Source: an uncultured Actinomycetes bacterium (GTDB lineage Bacteria > Actinomycetota > Actinomycetes > Nanopelagicales > Nanopelagicaceae). From it: DNA of 64,000 nucleotides. Location: assembly GCA_937876245.1 (NCBI GenBank), contig CALEGP010000038.1:149933-213932 (forward strand), written 5' to 3'. The notes under the pieces are model-generated. The model made no database searches. It was given only the letters and a program-made list of their open reading frames with translations, and was not told the DNA's origin. How positions within the stretch are numbered: position 1 is the first letter of the stretch; every line of letters begins with the position of its first letter. A program made the translations under genes and the position numbers. Shown here in pieces: positions 24,370-31,161 of the stretch.

Positions 24370-24741
24370 ATGAGTACAGAAACTTCTCAGGACGTCACGA
24401 TTGATACCGCTCCTTCTGCAGGAATTGGCTTGAGCGATGTGGCAGCGACTAAAGTTTCCGCCCTTTTAACACAAGAGGGTCGCGATGATTTAAGTCTTCG
24501 GGTCGCAGTCCAACCAGGTGGATGTTCTGGGCTTAAGTACCAGCTTTATTTTGATGACCGGGAACTCGATGGCGATACAGTTACAGAATTCGGATCAGTC
24601 AAGGTTGTTACCGACAAGATGAGCACCCCCTATTTAATGGGAGCTTCAATTGATTTTGTCGACACAATTGAGAAGCAAGGTTTCACGATAGATAATCCAA
24701 ATGCACAGGGTTCTTGCGCCTGTGGCGATTCATTTAATTAA
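24370..24741 (+). CDS. erpA: iron-sulfur cluster insertion protein (HesB/IscA family)
   Basis: A-type carrier that hands Fe-S clusters to apoproteins. The three conserved cysteines are in VQPGGCSGLKY and the C-terminal GSCACGDSF. 123 aa, ErpA-like length with a short N-terminal extension. ATG with a good AGGAGAG ribosome-binding site. It is divergent from nadA, itself a Fe-S enzyme, and other clients in the window include LipA, the Rieske protein and the 2-oxoacid:ferredoxin oxidoreductase. Confidence 0.93.
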   Translation: MSTETSQDVTIDTAPSAGIGLSDVAATKVSALLTQEGRDDLSLRVAVQPGGCSGLKYQLYFDDRELDGDTVTEFGSVKVVTDKMSTPYLMGASIDFVDTIEKQGFTIDNPNAQGSCACGDSFN

Positions 24742-24762: not shown

Positions 24763-25752
24763 ATGAAAATTGCTTGTGCTGGTTCTGTTGGGCGCGATCA
24801 TTTAATGACATTTCCGGGTAAATTTACTGATTCTCTGGTGGCCGGGTCTCTAGACAAAGTATCGCTCTCATTTTTGGTTGATGGCTTAGATATTAGGCGT
24901 GGCGGAACGGCTGCAAATATTGCCTTTGGACTCGGCGCTCTGGGCCTTGATCCACTTTTGATTGCCTCGGTCGGAACGGATTGGGCTGACTACGATTCCT
25001 GGCTCAAAAGGCACGGTGTAGAAACGTGCTATGTAAAAATTTCAAAAGAGCTTTTAACTGCCTCGTTTATGGTCACTACTGATCAAGATTTGAATCAAAT
25101 TGCATCCTTCTTTCCAGGAGCAATGAGTGAGGCGCGAGAGATCGAGCTGCCTGCGATTATTGAGAAAAGTGGAAAATTCGATCTTCTAATAATTTCACCA
25201 GATGATCCAGAGGCAATGATCAGCCACAGTGAATATGCGAGAACTCTAGGGATTCCATTTGTTGCTGATCCGTCCCAACAACTCGCCCGAATGGACGGGG
25301 AGTCAATAAAGTTATTGATTGAAGGAGCTGATTACTTATTCCTAAATGAGTATGAACTTGCTCTCACGATTCAAAAGACTGGTTGGAGCGATGCTGAAAT
25401 ATTTAACAAAGTTAAGGTGCGAGTAATTACTCTTGGTTCAAGGGGTGCTCTTGTCGAGGAGCATGGTAAAGATTCGATTGAAGTTGGCGTGCCTAAGGAA
25501 ATAGCAAAGCTTGATCCAACTGGCGTCGGTGATTGCTTCCGAGCAGGTTTTGTCTCAGGGTTAGCATGGGGTTTAGGACATGAACGGTGTGCGCAGATTG
25601 GGTCGATGCTGGCGACTTTCTGCATTGAGACCAAGGGAACGCAGGAGTATCGATTTACGAAAGATGAATTCATCGCCCGCTTCACTGAGGCATATGGCGT
25701 TCAGGCCGCTAATGAAATTGGTAGAAAAATCGAGCCACGTTTAGCTAGTTAA
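24763..25752 (+). CDS. PfkB family carbohydrate/nucleoside kinase
   Basis: Ribokinase-fold kinase. The N-terminal sugar-binding signature DIRRGGTAANIAFGLGALGLDPLLIASVG and the C-terminal anion-hole motif DPTGVGDCFRAGFVSG (catalytic Asp in GVGD) are intact. The arrangement, with an early substrate loop FPGKFTDSLVAGSLDKVSLSF, resembles bacterial adenosine kinase-like members, which would fit the nucleoside salvage genes further downstream, but sugar kinases of the family look similar. It lies 21 nt after erpA and may be co-transcribed. Its 3' end overlaps the convergent tusA-like gene by 12 nt. Confidence 0.85.
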   Translation: MKIACAGSVGRDHLMTFPGKFTDSLVAGSLDKVSLSFLVDGLDIRRGGTAANIAFGLGALGLDPLLIASVGTDWADYDSWLKRHGVETCYVKISKELLTASFMVTTDQDLNQIASFFPGAMSEAREIELPAIIEKSGKFDLLIISPDDPEAMISHSEYARTLGIPFVADPSQQLARMDGESIKLLIEGADYLFLNEYELALTIQKTGWSDAEIFNKVKVRVITLGSRGALVEEHGKDSIEVGVPKEIAKLDPTGVGDCFRAGFVSGLAWGLGHERCAQIGSMLATFCIETKGTQEYRFTKDEFIARFTEAYGVQAANEIGRKIEPRLAS

Positions 25753-25953
25753 TTTAGTAATCTCAAAGGTATTTACTGCCAAATTTTTTACCTTGTTTTT
25801 TGTCATACGCGCCCATGCTCGCAAATCTGGCTCGGTTGCTGGGTCATCGCTAAGTAGGACAAGGCGGTATCCGATCTTTTGGCTCGTAAGTTTCTTGGCT
25901 AATTCGATAATGGGCAGTGGACAACATTTCCCCAGGCAATCTAGATAGTCCAT
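25741..25953 (-). CDS. TusA-family sulfur carrier protein
   Basis: 70-residue single-domain TusA-like protein with the hallmark DCLGKCCPLPIIELAKKL; C11 of the CPxP motif would carry the persulfide. The C-terminal half keeps the beta-alpha-beta fold (YRLVLLSDDPATEPDLRAWARM). Its ATG shares one base with the stop codon of the cysteine-desulfurase-like gene (TAATG), so the two are translationally coupled. Known relatives pass sulfur for tRNA thiolation, molybdenum cofactor or dissimilatory pathways; the acceptor here is unknown. Confidence 0.88.
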   Translation of the reverse strand: MDYLDCLGKCCPLPIIELAKKLTSQKIGYRLVLLSDDPATEPDLRAWARMTKNKVKNLAVNTFEITKLTS

Positions 25954-26999
25954 TAAGAACGCAATTCCGTGACAGTTTCGGTTAAGGTTTTGAGGAAATC
26001 ATCTATTTGTTCGAAAGTGGTTGAGTGGTGAATCGTTAGGCGAATATTTCCATGCGTGAGAATTCCCAAAGCTGCCAATACGTGACTGGGCGCCATATTT
26101 GCCGCGCTACAAGCCGAACCAGAGTCGACGGCAAATCCCTTATCAGCCAACCTTGTCACTAGCTGTTCAGCATTTACATATAAAAATGAGGCGCTTAACA
26201 AGTGCTCTGCTCCGCCCGGAGCTAGGTCAGCATCTGGGATATTGGTTGAAATAAAAGTACGAATCTCGCGGTTAATTTTACTAATTTTAGCGGCCAGATT
26301 TTTCTCGTCTGCAGTCCAGCTATCAATCGCCAAGGCACTTGCGACAATTAAAGGTAGCGAAGTTGGCCCAGGGTTTACTCGAGCATCCATGTGAGGAAGT
26401 GGATTGCGCCAAGCCGTTTTTTTCGAGAGGGCAAAAATTCCAAGACCACCTGGTCCGGCCCAAGAGGTGGAGTCCCATAGCGCAGTACTCCAATTTTCAG
26501 GAAGCGGTATTCGAACTCCTGACGCCGTGGCATCTACAAAAAGGTTACTACCCTCGATCTGGCTATTTCTCTGAATAATTCCCGTTTCACGATTACAGAG
26601 TTGTAATGAAACGACATCATTTCCGCCATATTTTCCAAACTCAATCTGTCCGTTCCCCTCAACTTTAATCTGGAGATTCTTAACTTTCTCGGCAATTGCA
26701 AAAACTTCCATGCGATCGACATTGCTATAAATTAGGGTGCTTTCGGGAGTCAGCAACCCTGAAATTCCGAGGTGAAAACCCAGATTTGGCTCTCCCAGAA
26801 AATGTAGCTCATCGCCGCGGACGCCTAGATGGCTAGCGAATGTCTCTCTGGCCTCATTTAGGAGGATAGAGGCCGATTTAGAGTCGATTCCAAGTTTTGT
26901 TGAATCGGGCCAGCAAACCTCAAATATGTGAGGAAGCGCCATCCGGGCGGCATCGTGAAGCCGAGGTTCTGATTGGAAGTTAGGGGTGATGGAAACCAC
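25953..26999 (-). CDS. cysteine-desulfurase-like protein lacking the PLP lysine
   Basis: Class V aminotransferase fold aligned to IscS/NifS over its whole 348 aa, but with the cofactor site lost. The SGHKIYGPKG loop that carries the PLP lysine reads DSTSWAGPGG (Ser179 in place of Lys). The stacking histidine is replaced (NVDRMEV, Arg96) and the VDATQS glutamine is Ala159; Asp156 is kept. In contrast, the sulfur-accepting cysteine loop is intact: DSGSACSAANMAPSHVL, C297. The protein therefore looks like a pseudo-desulfurase that could still carry or relay persulfide to the coupled TusA-like protein. That role is inference. GTG start, leaderless layout, divergent from ctaC. Confidence 0.8.
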   Translation of the reverse strand: MVSITPNFQSEPRLHDAARMALPHIFEVCWPDSTKLGIDSKSASILLNEARETFASHLGVRGDELHFLGEPNLGFHLGISGLLTPESTLIYSNVDRMEVFAIAEKVKNLQIKVEGNGQIEFGKYGGNDVVSLQLCNRETGIIQRNSQIEGSNLFVDATASGVRIPLPENWSTALWDSTSWAGPGGLGIFALSKKTAWRNPLPHMDARVNPGPTSLPLIVASALAIDSWTADEKNLAAKISKINREIRTFISTNIPDADLAPGGAEHLLSASFLYVNAEQLVTRLADKGFAVDSGSACSAANMAPSHVLAALGILTHGNIRLTIHHSTTFEQIDDFLKTLTETVTELRS

Positions 27000-27057: not shown

Positions 27058-27813
27058 ATGAAATTTAAGCCCAGAAGGAAAATGCTTGGCGCAACGCTGC
27101 TTTCGATTGTCCCGGTTGCTCTCCTCTCCTCTTGCTCAACAGAGAACATTTCAGGAATGGGCTTTCCAAAGAACGTTTCGAGCGTAAATGACATTTCTCT
27201 GCCGCTCTGGCAAGGCGCATGGATTACAGCGGGGATAGTAGGCGTCCTAACTGCGATCCTGATTATGTGGCCAGCTTTTCGCCATCGTCGCAAGGGTGAT
27301 GAAGTACCTAAGCAGACTCAGTACAACGTTCCGGTAGAGATCGCATACACCCTGATCCCCTTTTTGATTGTTGCAGTTCTCTTCTACTTCACTGCAGTAA
27401 AAGAAAGTGCAATCACTAAAGTTTCGGCTTCGGATGAAATTAGTCACGTCATTGACGTGAATGGAATTCAATGGTCTTGGCAATTCACCTATCAAGATTC
27501 GCCGCTCTCGCCCACCGTTACTGGGACACCAGCAAAACCTCCAGTGCTGGTTATTCCAAAGGGAGAGAGAGTTCGTTTTAATTTAACAGCTTCAGATGTA
27601 GTGCATGGTTTTTGGATTCCAGCTTTTATGATTCAAATGCAGACATTGCCAGGAGTGGAAAATCATCTAGAGTTCACGGCAAATAAAATTGGCTCATACC
27701 CAGGGCGCTGCAATATTCTCTGCGGTCGCGATCATTCGAAGATGCTTTTCACGGTAAAAGTTGTTTCTCCCAGTGCTTATCAGAAATATATATCTAACTT
27801 GAAGGCGGCATAA
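27058..27813 (+). CDS. ctaC: cytochrome c oxidase subunit II
   Basis: Membrane-anchored CuA subunit of the aa3 oxidase that receives electrons from cytochrome c. An N-terminal lipoprotein-type signal ends in LLSSC (C26), and two transmembrane helices follow (about 55-75 and 97-117). The cupredoxin domain carries the CuA ligands in [14 protein letters not shown] together with the upstream His in DVVHGFW. 251 aa. First gene of ctaC-ctaD-ctaF; its stop overlaps the ctaD start (TAATG). Confidence 0.96.
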
Positions 27814-29473: not shown

Positions 29474-29875
29474 ATGAAAACAGGTTGGATTTTATTTACC
29501 GGACTTGCTGTTTTTTATGCACTAGTTACAGTGATTTACTGGTTGGTCGGCGGTGAGGCAGTTGGAATCACTGCTCTTGGATTGTCGGGTGGGCTCGCAG
29601 CGTTAATTGGTTTTTATCTCTGGTTCACAAATAAACAACTTAGCAACGTTCTACCAGAAGACAATATAAAGGCAGAGATCTCGGATTCCGCTGGAGAATT
29701 AGGTTTCTACTCACCGCATTCTTGGTGGCCACTGCCTCTCGCATTCACCATGACAATGGCAGGAGTTGGGCTGCTGGTAGGTTGGTGGCTTACGCTGATC
29801 GCAGTTGGAGCACTGTTAATCAGTATTCTTGGGTTTGTTCTCGAATATGAAAAACCTGTTAGGAGTTCACACTAA
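29474..29875 (+). CDS. ctaF: cytochrome c oxidase subunit IV, actinobacterial type
   Basis: 133-residue membrane protein of the CtaF family. Two N-terminal helices (about 5-25 and 32-50), a short exposed stretch with the family motif GELGFYSPHSWWPLPLA, then two further helices. It stabilises the actinobacterial aa3 oxidase. It begins 2 nt after ctaD, and its stop overlaps the start of the following permease gene by one base. Confidence 0.93.
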   Translation: MKTGWILFTGLAVFYALVTVIYWLVGGEAVGITALGLSGGLAALIGFYLWFTNKQLSNVLPEDNIKAEISDSAGELGFYSPHSWWPLPLAFTMTMAGVGLLVGWWLTLIAVGALLISILGFVLEYEKPVRSSH

Positions 29876-31161
29876 TGTCAATGGAGATGCTGATCGCTGT
29901 TGCGATTTTTGTAATGGCATATATTGCAATTGCCACTGAGAAGATTAGTCGAATTGCGATAGTTCTTACTGGTGCGGCTGCCATGATAATAGTTGGAGCA
30001 ACAGATGCCAACAAGGCTTTTTATAGCCATGAGACGGGTATCGATTGGAATGTGATCTTTCTACTCTTGGGAATGATGATAATTGTTAGCGTTATTCACA
30101 AAACTGGGCTTTTTGAATTTTTAGCTGTTAAAGCGATAAAGAAATCTAAGGGCAATCCAAAGGTTGCCATTGTCTATTTGATGGTCTTAACAGCGCTAGC
30201 TTCGGCCATTTTGGATAATGTGACTACGATTTTGTTGGCTGTTCCAATGACCATAATTGTGTGTAAACACCTCAATGTCTCGCCAACCGCTTTTATCTTG
30301 TCGGAAGTTTTTGTTTCCAATATTGGCGGAGCGGCCACTTTGGTAGGTGACCCACCAAATATTATTATTGCCAGCCGGGCTGGCTTAAGTTACAACTCAT
30401 TTTTGGTACACATGGCGCCAATGGTCATGGTTGTCTTGGTAGTAATTATTCCGCTACTAGTCGGGCTATTTCGAAGAGAATTAGTTAATTCAAAGGCTGA
30501 CCGCGCCCTCGTTATGAAATTAGATGAGCGATCATTTATCCAGGATGTGGGCTTACTCAAAAAGAGCCTGGTCGTCCTTTTCGCCGTCATGGTTGCCTTT
30601 GGTTTGCATTCTGTTATTAGTATCGAACCCGCCGTAGTTGCATTATTTGGTGCGGGAATTTTGGTTGGAATCAGTGGACTCAAGCCGCGTGATTATGTAA
30701 AAGATATTGAGTGGAATACGCTGATTTTTTTTGCTGGGCTTTTCATAATGGTAGGAGCCTTGGTAAATGTTGGGGCGCTTGAGGAATTTGCAATATTTCT
30801 TAAGGAGCTTTTTGGTGGAGATACTAAGTTGGCTGCAGGTAGCATCTTAGGTATCTCTGCAGTATTTTCTGGCTTGATAGATAACATTCCATTTGTAGCA
30901 TCTATGAGTCCGGTCGTGGCAGAGCTCAGCCAGGGTCTCGTTGGCAGACAAGAGCATGTTCTCTGGTGGGGGCTAGCTTTTGGAGCTGATTTCGGTGGTA
31001 ACGCCACAATTATTGGTGCTAGCGCTAACGTTGTTGCAATTGGTTTAGCAGCTAAAGCTGGGGTTCGAATTTCGTTCTGGAAATTCTCAAAATACGGAAT
31101 CCTCGTTACCTTGGTAAGCGTTGCAATGATTTATCCGTATTTGCTTCTCTTCTACTTCTAG
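29875..31161 (+). CDS. ArsB/NhaD-type permease
   Basis: Polytopic transporter of the ion-transporter superfamily, about 11-12 helices in 428 aa. The two inverted-repeat signature regions are visible: ALASAILDNVTTILLAVPM with GAATLVGDPPNIIIAS, and SGLIDNIPFVASMSPV with FGGNATIIGASANVVAIGLA. These fit NhaD/ArsB (P-type) members, which move Na+/H+ or oxyanions. The actual substrate cannot be decided. It is translationally coupled to ctaF (TAATG), so expressed with the oxidase, and its end overlaps the convergent qcrB by 4 nt. Confidence 0.88.
   Translation: MSMEMLIAVAIFVMAYIAIATEKISRIAIVLTGAAAMIIVGATDANKAFYSHETGIDWNVIFLLLGMMIIVSVIHKTGLFEFLAVKAIKKSKGNPKVAIVYLMVLTALASAILDNVTTILLAVPMTIIVCKHLNVSPTAFILSEVFVSNIGGAATLVGDPPNIIIASRAGLSYNSFLVHMAPMVMVVLVVIIPLLVGLFRRELVNSKADRALVMKLDERSFIQDVGLLKKSLVVLFAVMVAFGLHSVISIEPAVVALFGAGILVGISGLKPRDYVKDIEWNTLIFFAGLFIMVGALVNVGALEEFAIFLKELFGGDTKLAAGSILGISAVFSGLIDNIPFVASMSPVVAELSQGLVGRQEHVLWWGLAFGADFGGNATIIGASANVVAIGLAAKAGVRISFWKFSKYGILVTLVSVAMIYPYLLLFYF

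Follow-up and report, generated by a model that had tools for sequence, protein, structure and literature searches.

Sulfur enters iron-sulfur (Fe-S) clusters, thiolated tRNA, and cofactors through cysteine desulfurases. In the IscS enzyme of E. coli, K206 is the lysine that forms the Schiff base with pyridoxal phosphate (PLP), H104 is the stacking histidine, T76, S203, and H205 make up the phosphate site, N155 and Q183 provide the O3' contacts, D180 and R354 point towards the cofactor and the carboxylate of the substrate, and C328 is the persulfide cysteine. Structures of E. coli IscS with TusA (PDB 3LVJ, 3LVK) represent one of the closest described systems: IscS binds TusA, an outward swing of the mobile cysteine loop is proposed for the hand-over of the persulfide, and the roles of K206 and C328 are given there as well (PMC2854127). 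A second type is represented by IscS of Archaeoglobus fulgidus (PDB 4EB5, 4EB7, 4HVK, 4R5F) and IscS1 of Methanosarcina acetivorans, which have the IscS fold and keep the cysteine but lack the PLP lysine; the A. fulgidus protein has Asp in place of Lys, shows no desulfurase activity, and contributes its cysteine as a ligand for the IscU-bound cluster (PMC7585200). A third comprises actinobacterial pairs or fusions of a desulfurase and TusA at the ctaC locus, of which the papers found give no characterisation. Searches of the literature for desulfurase-TusA fusions in Actinobacteria and for desulfurase pseudoenzymes, covering titles and abstracts and few subscription journals, yielded no description of the family considered here. 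The absence of the lysine from an IscS protein is thus already known from Archaeoglobus; what is new is a form that is linked to TusA and recurrent.

The window, that is, the whole stretch of DNA analysed, comprises 64,000 nucleotides from a member of the Nanopelagicales (acI) with a genome of 1.52 Mb. On its reverse strand, positions 25953 to 26999 encode a pseudo-cysteine-desulfurase of the IscS/NifS fold (348 residues, GTG start), and positions 25741 to 25953 encode a TusA-like sulfur carrier of 70 residues with an intact CPLP motif (PF01206, 51.9 bits against a cut-off of 28.6). Base 25953 is common to the stop codon of the first gene and the start codon of the second, in a TAATG junction, exactly as the preliminary description had it for this gene pair and its retained CPxP cysteine; such an overlap is a usual sign of translational coupling. 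The TusA of the window carries an additional Cys immediately ahead of the CPLP cysteine, and it reads AWARM, with Ala where its relatives commonly have a second Cys (AWCRM). A carbohydrate-kinase-like gene on the forward strand (24763 to 25752), a neighbour conserved throughout the class, converges on tusA, and the two 3' ends overlap by 12 bp; beyond it lies another conserved neighbour, a gene for an ErpA/HesB-like Fe-S carrier named by its sequence motif (24370 to 24741, forward). On the other side, ctaC (cytochrome oxidase subunit II; 27058 to 27813, forward) is divergent, with about 58 bp between both start codons. Directly downstream of ctaF, positions 29875 to 31161 contain a gene identified by eye as an ArsB/NhaD-like permease, which is convergent with the genes on the qcrB side.

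Standard profiles match the 348-residue protein weakly. PF00266 (Aminotran_5) reaches 23.1 bits against a cut-off of 21.5 and covers the C-terminal part, the NifS profile TIGR03402 gives 78 bits over residues 41 to 348 and misses its NCBIfam cut-off of 530.75, and the IscS profile TIGR02006 gives 55.7 bits against an NCBIfam equivalog cut-off of 643.2, also missed. The protein is nevertheless a member of the class-V aminotransferase fold and of the IscS-NifS lineage, homologous over its full length. A structure predicted with AF2 from a 93-row alignment has a pLDDT of 91.8 and a pTM of 0.90, with very low confidence at the cysteine loop, residues 296 to 299, only; the loop around Cys297 is accordingly predicted to be mobile as in IscS. 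The model superposes over 334 to 345 residues (Z 36 to 38; Foldseek was also run) on human Nfs1 and on the IscS proteins of E. coli, M. tuberculosis, and A. fulgidus, the last at a Z of about 36.

Residues were mapped by alignment with E. coli IscS (from MG1655) and about 185 other sequences. The PLP lysine K206 corresponds to S179, the stacking histidine H104 to R96, Q183 to A159, and the persulfide cysteine C328 to C297; an assignment first made by eye in the preliminary description is thereby confirmed residue for residue, and the fold model agrees with it. Because the model superposes on solved IscS and Nfs1 structures, the register is secure, and misalignment by eye is ruled out as the source of the observation. 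Further PLP contacts are replaced as well (T76 by N72, N155 by R137, S203 by D176, and H205 by T178). D180 and R354 are kept as D156 and R320, D180 being the only PLP contact to survive. The segment coding for the persulfide loop, residues 293 to 309 (SGSACSAANMAPSHVLA), lies at 26073 to 26123 on the reverse strand and was located from the alignment and the model. Since a PLP active site is no longer built, the usual extraction of sulfur from cysteine would not take place, and a protein with such residues probably cannot generate active sulfur itself. The E. coli system shares the fold, the type of partner, and the mobile cysteine loop, but its IscS is an active PLP enzyme and its TusA is not encoded beside iscS.

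Conservation was counted over 183 distinct sequences, 64 from Nanopelagicales, 100 from other Actinomycetes, and 19 from the remainder of the phylum. The PLP lysine is present in none of the 64, in 75 of the 100, and in all 19, while the persulfide cysteine occurs in every sequence (183/183, including 64/64 in Nanopelagicales). Within the order, the lysine position holds mostly Ser or Ala and H104 has become Arg or Lys in 63 of 64 sequences, yet 63 retain D180 and 61 retain R354. The preliminary description left undecided whether the loss was already known in related actinobacterial proteins. Some of them share it, as 24 further sequences from other Actinomycetes lack the lysine, all of them with the cysteine and R354; however, most of the closest relatives from outside the order keep the lysine, so that the loss belongs to the lineage and not to the whole family. 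A loss common to the entire actinobacterial family is ruled out by the presence of the lysine in most relatives (75/100). Lysine-less orthologues outside the order (L012, L105, L112, L120, L123, L124, L133, L135, L137, L139, L140, L142, L143, L148, L169, L174, L177, and L179) have S, D, A, G, M, Q, or other residues at this position, and several also lack the stacking His; the Asp found in several of them recalls A. fulgidus IscS. When the order is compared with lysine-bearing relatives, with columns treated as independent in the permutations, entropy rises by 1.26 bits in the seven PLP-contact columns and by 0.44 bits in an average column (p about 0.008). The cysteine loop gains none and is the best-conserved part of the protein, its mean of 0.67 bits against 1.76 elsewhere being matched in 0 of 20,000 random draws.

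The gene is widespread in a set of genomes that are largely metagenome-assembled and partially sampled: it is found in 117 of 151 genomes of the order, and 229 of 394 sampled genomes of the class, order members included, have a match at the threshold used. The orthologues are about 30-40% identical, and orthology at this level is indicated by a gene order conserved across the class, with ctaC divergent on one side and TusA, the kinase, the ErpA-like gene, and NadA on the other. The syntenic actinobacterial pairs and fusions (ctaC / desulfurase-TusA / kinase / ErpA-like) differ from the pair of the window in that most keep the lysine of the SAHKWGGP motif, the stacking His, and the phosphate site. 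A possible link to oxidase maturation, suggested earlier from the divergent ctaC, finds no support as a specific one, because the same layout is found with lysine-bearing relatives across the class and because ctaC survives loss of the gene, remaining intact beside the kinase in six gene-less genomes of one genus. The divergent ctaC arrangement is ancestral.

A quick tree, from whose alignment the PLP columns were left out, groups the order in one clade (support 100). Lysine-less sequences turn up in about ten further family codes of the class as well, and a minimum of seven changes at the lysine position is needed. With weak branches collapsed, the minimum falls to 6 changes (support 80), 5 (90), or 2 (95). 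These changes are most simply read as losses because IscS and the outgroups at the level of the phylum carry the lysine; it was thus likely lost repeatedly, about five to seven times, two of them firmly supported. The cysteine stays in every lysine-less lineage of the tree. Purifying selection acts on the lysine-less protein, as shown by a median dN/dS of 0.11 (Nei-Gojobori, close pairs within the order). In part of one genus, g200 (six genomes, L205 to L210), the desulfurase-TusA pair is cleanly deleted and the kinase adjoins ctaC with roughly 100-200 bp between matches, so the gene is dispensable there.

TusA is found in 59 of 152 genomes of the order, as 60 genes, and all 60 lie next to the pseudo-desulfurase gene, the two matches being 3-130 bp apart; no genome among the 152 has TusA without the pseudo-desulfurase (Fisher p 2e-9, uncorrected for kinship). 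The CPxP cysteine is kept in all 43 TusA proteins of order loci, and the two proteins are fused into one in several genomes of the class (group f3 and others). Among sequences from outside the order, 25 show no aligned lysine, one being truncated at that point; TusA is matched in the locus of 22 of them, and one of these matches, in L139, does not resemble TusA. In about half of the order genomes that carry the pseudo-desulfurase, complete single-contig genomes among them, no match to TusA is found at all, and Cys297 is kept in all 26 TusA-less loci of the order. Loci of this kind with Cys297 intact are spread over several branches (L052, L053, L065, L068, L083 to L087, L089 to L095, and L097 to L099), and no TusA was present in those of their genomes that were searched. 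Pairs lacking TusA give dN/dS values of 0.118 (L089/L091), 0.075 (L087/L090), 0.125 (L085/L090), and 0.112 (L068/L070). The partnership with TusA is real but is not the whole function; since about half of the gene-bearing genomes lack TusA and keep Cys297, TusA cannot be the sole acceptor.

We propose that the protein is a PLP-free persulfide acceptor or relay, in which Cys297 would be loaded by another sulfur source and would then pass the sulfur on, and we give this reading a probability of about 0.5. A pseudoenzyme that relays or gates persulfide was already suggested in the preliminary description. The selective loss of the PLP site, the retention of the cysteine loop, the recurrence of this exchange in other lineages, purifying selection, adjacency to or fusion with TusA, and the binding of TusA by E. 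coli IscS with its proposed loop swing all speak for it, and the part that does not stand is TusA as the only acceptor. The protein, unable to build a PLP active site, would still present Cys297 on a mobile loop. We infer that Cys297 most likely receives sulfane sulfur as a persulfide, either from one of two desulfurases of the host, SufS and an IscS-like enzyme, or from a small persulfide, and that the sulfur would move from there to TusA where TusA is present and to another acceptor where it is absent. Both candidate donor enzymes are lysine-bearing: SufS sits in a SufD/Rieske/SufC/SufS/SufU operon, and the IscS-like protein, 29% identical to the pseudo-desulfurase, is encoded directly upstream of mnmA. 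With these two intact, the cell does not depend on the pseudo-desulfurase for sulfur mobilisation. Against the relay we count the retained D156 and R320, with which the pocket could still bind a ligand and do chemistry, the clean loss of the gene in part of one genus, and the absence of TusA from about half of the carriers. A wider statement, that actinobacteria repeatedly turned PLP cysteine desulfurases into persulfide carriers that need no cofactor, the PLP site being dismantled several times independently around an invariant loop, and that such a carrier is externally loaded and delivers to TusA as well as to one or more other acceptors, is put forward tentatively, at somewhat less than even odds.

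The main rival to the relay is a function of the Archaeoglobus type, because A. fulgidus IscS is the closest precedent: there would be no desulfurase activity, and the loop cysteine would act in Fe-S assembly as a ligand or scaffold, with a partner such as SufU or the ErpA-like carrier. A direct precedent exists in the A. fulgidus protein (PMC7585200), whose sequence the family profile also matches best among those in the PDB, and Asp stands at the lysine position in several lysine-less actinobacterial relatives. A ligand role would account for the retention of Cys297 without TusA, and an ErpA-like gene is nearby with SufU in the genome. However, the partner in the archaeal systems is IscU and Fe-S assembly, whereas the operon here has no IscU, SufU being encoded elsewhere in the SUF operon, and the partner gene, where present, is the sulfur carrier TusA. 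The PLP pocket is also far more eroded here, with nearly every PLP contact lost and mostly Ser or Ala in place of the Asp of A. fulgidus, and the ErpA-like neighbour is just as near in lysine-bearing relatives. We regard a ligand role as unlikely.

It is quite improbable that the protein is a regulatory decoy, which would bind TusA or form mixed dimers with a real desulfurase and so limit the flow of sulfur while carrying none. The fold of the dimeric desulfurases is kept, and binding partners of desulfurases in E. coli tune the sulfur supply (PMC11446229), but an invariant cysteine (183/183) on a mobile loop would be needless for a pure decoy, the protein is retained without TusA, and the IscS-like paralogue of its own genome is only 29% identical. 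Equally doubtful is a PLP-free sulfurtransferase, in which D156 and R320 might bind a small sulfur compound such as cysteine hydropersulfide and Cys297 might take the sulfur directly. Such chemistry is consistent with the presence of the R354 and D180 equivalents in nearly all lysine-less sequences, though the PLP contacts are gone, and with Cys297 in TusA-less genomes; D180 and R354 may, on the other hand, be structural.

That the protein is still a PLP enzyme, with PLP bound non-covalently or a displaced lysine such as K35, is very unlikely. A. fulgidus IscS reportedly binds PLP without a Schiff base, the D180 and R354 equivalents are kept, and K35 (window 26895-26897), a lysine specific to the order, is conserved in 98% of Nanopelagicales. 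Nonetheless, the lysine, the stacking His, T76/S203/H205, and N155/Q183 are all replaced. K35 occupies the column of IscS R39, where lysine-bearing relatives have Arg, and by sequence it is therefore no moved catalytic lysine; the alignment holds no conserved lysine near the PLP site, which at the level of sequence speaks against a relocated one. A decaying relic of a desulfurase is scarcely credible, for although the pair is completely deleted in part of one genus and the gene diverges faster than its neighbours, the dN/dS of about 0.11, its presence in most genomes of the order (117 of 151), and the invariant cysteine loop rule out decay as a general explanation.

PLP chemistry appears to have been dropped several times and the persulfide cysteine never; if this is true, the function of the loop would be separable from sulfur mobilisation. 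At a single syntenic locus, orthologues that have or lack the lysine, and that occur with or without TusA, constitute a natural separation-of-function set, and its hosts are very abundant freshwater bacteria. For the whole order Nanopelagicales, the annotation 'cysteine desulfurase' would mislead.
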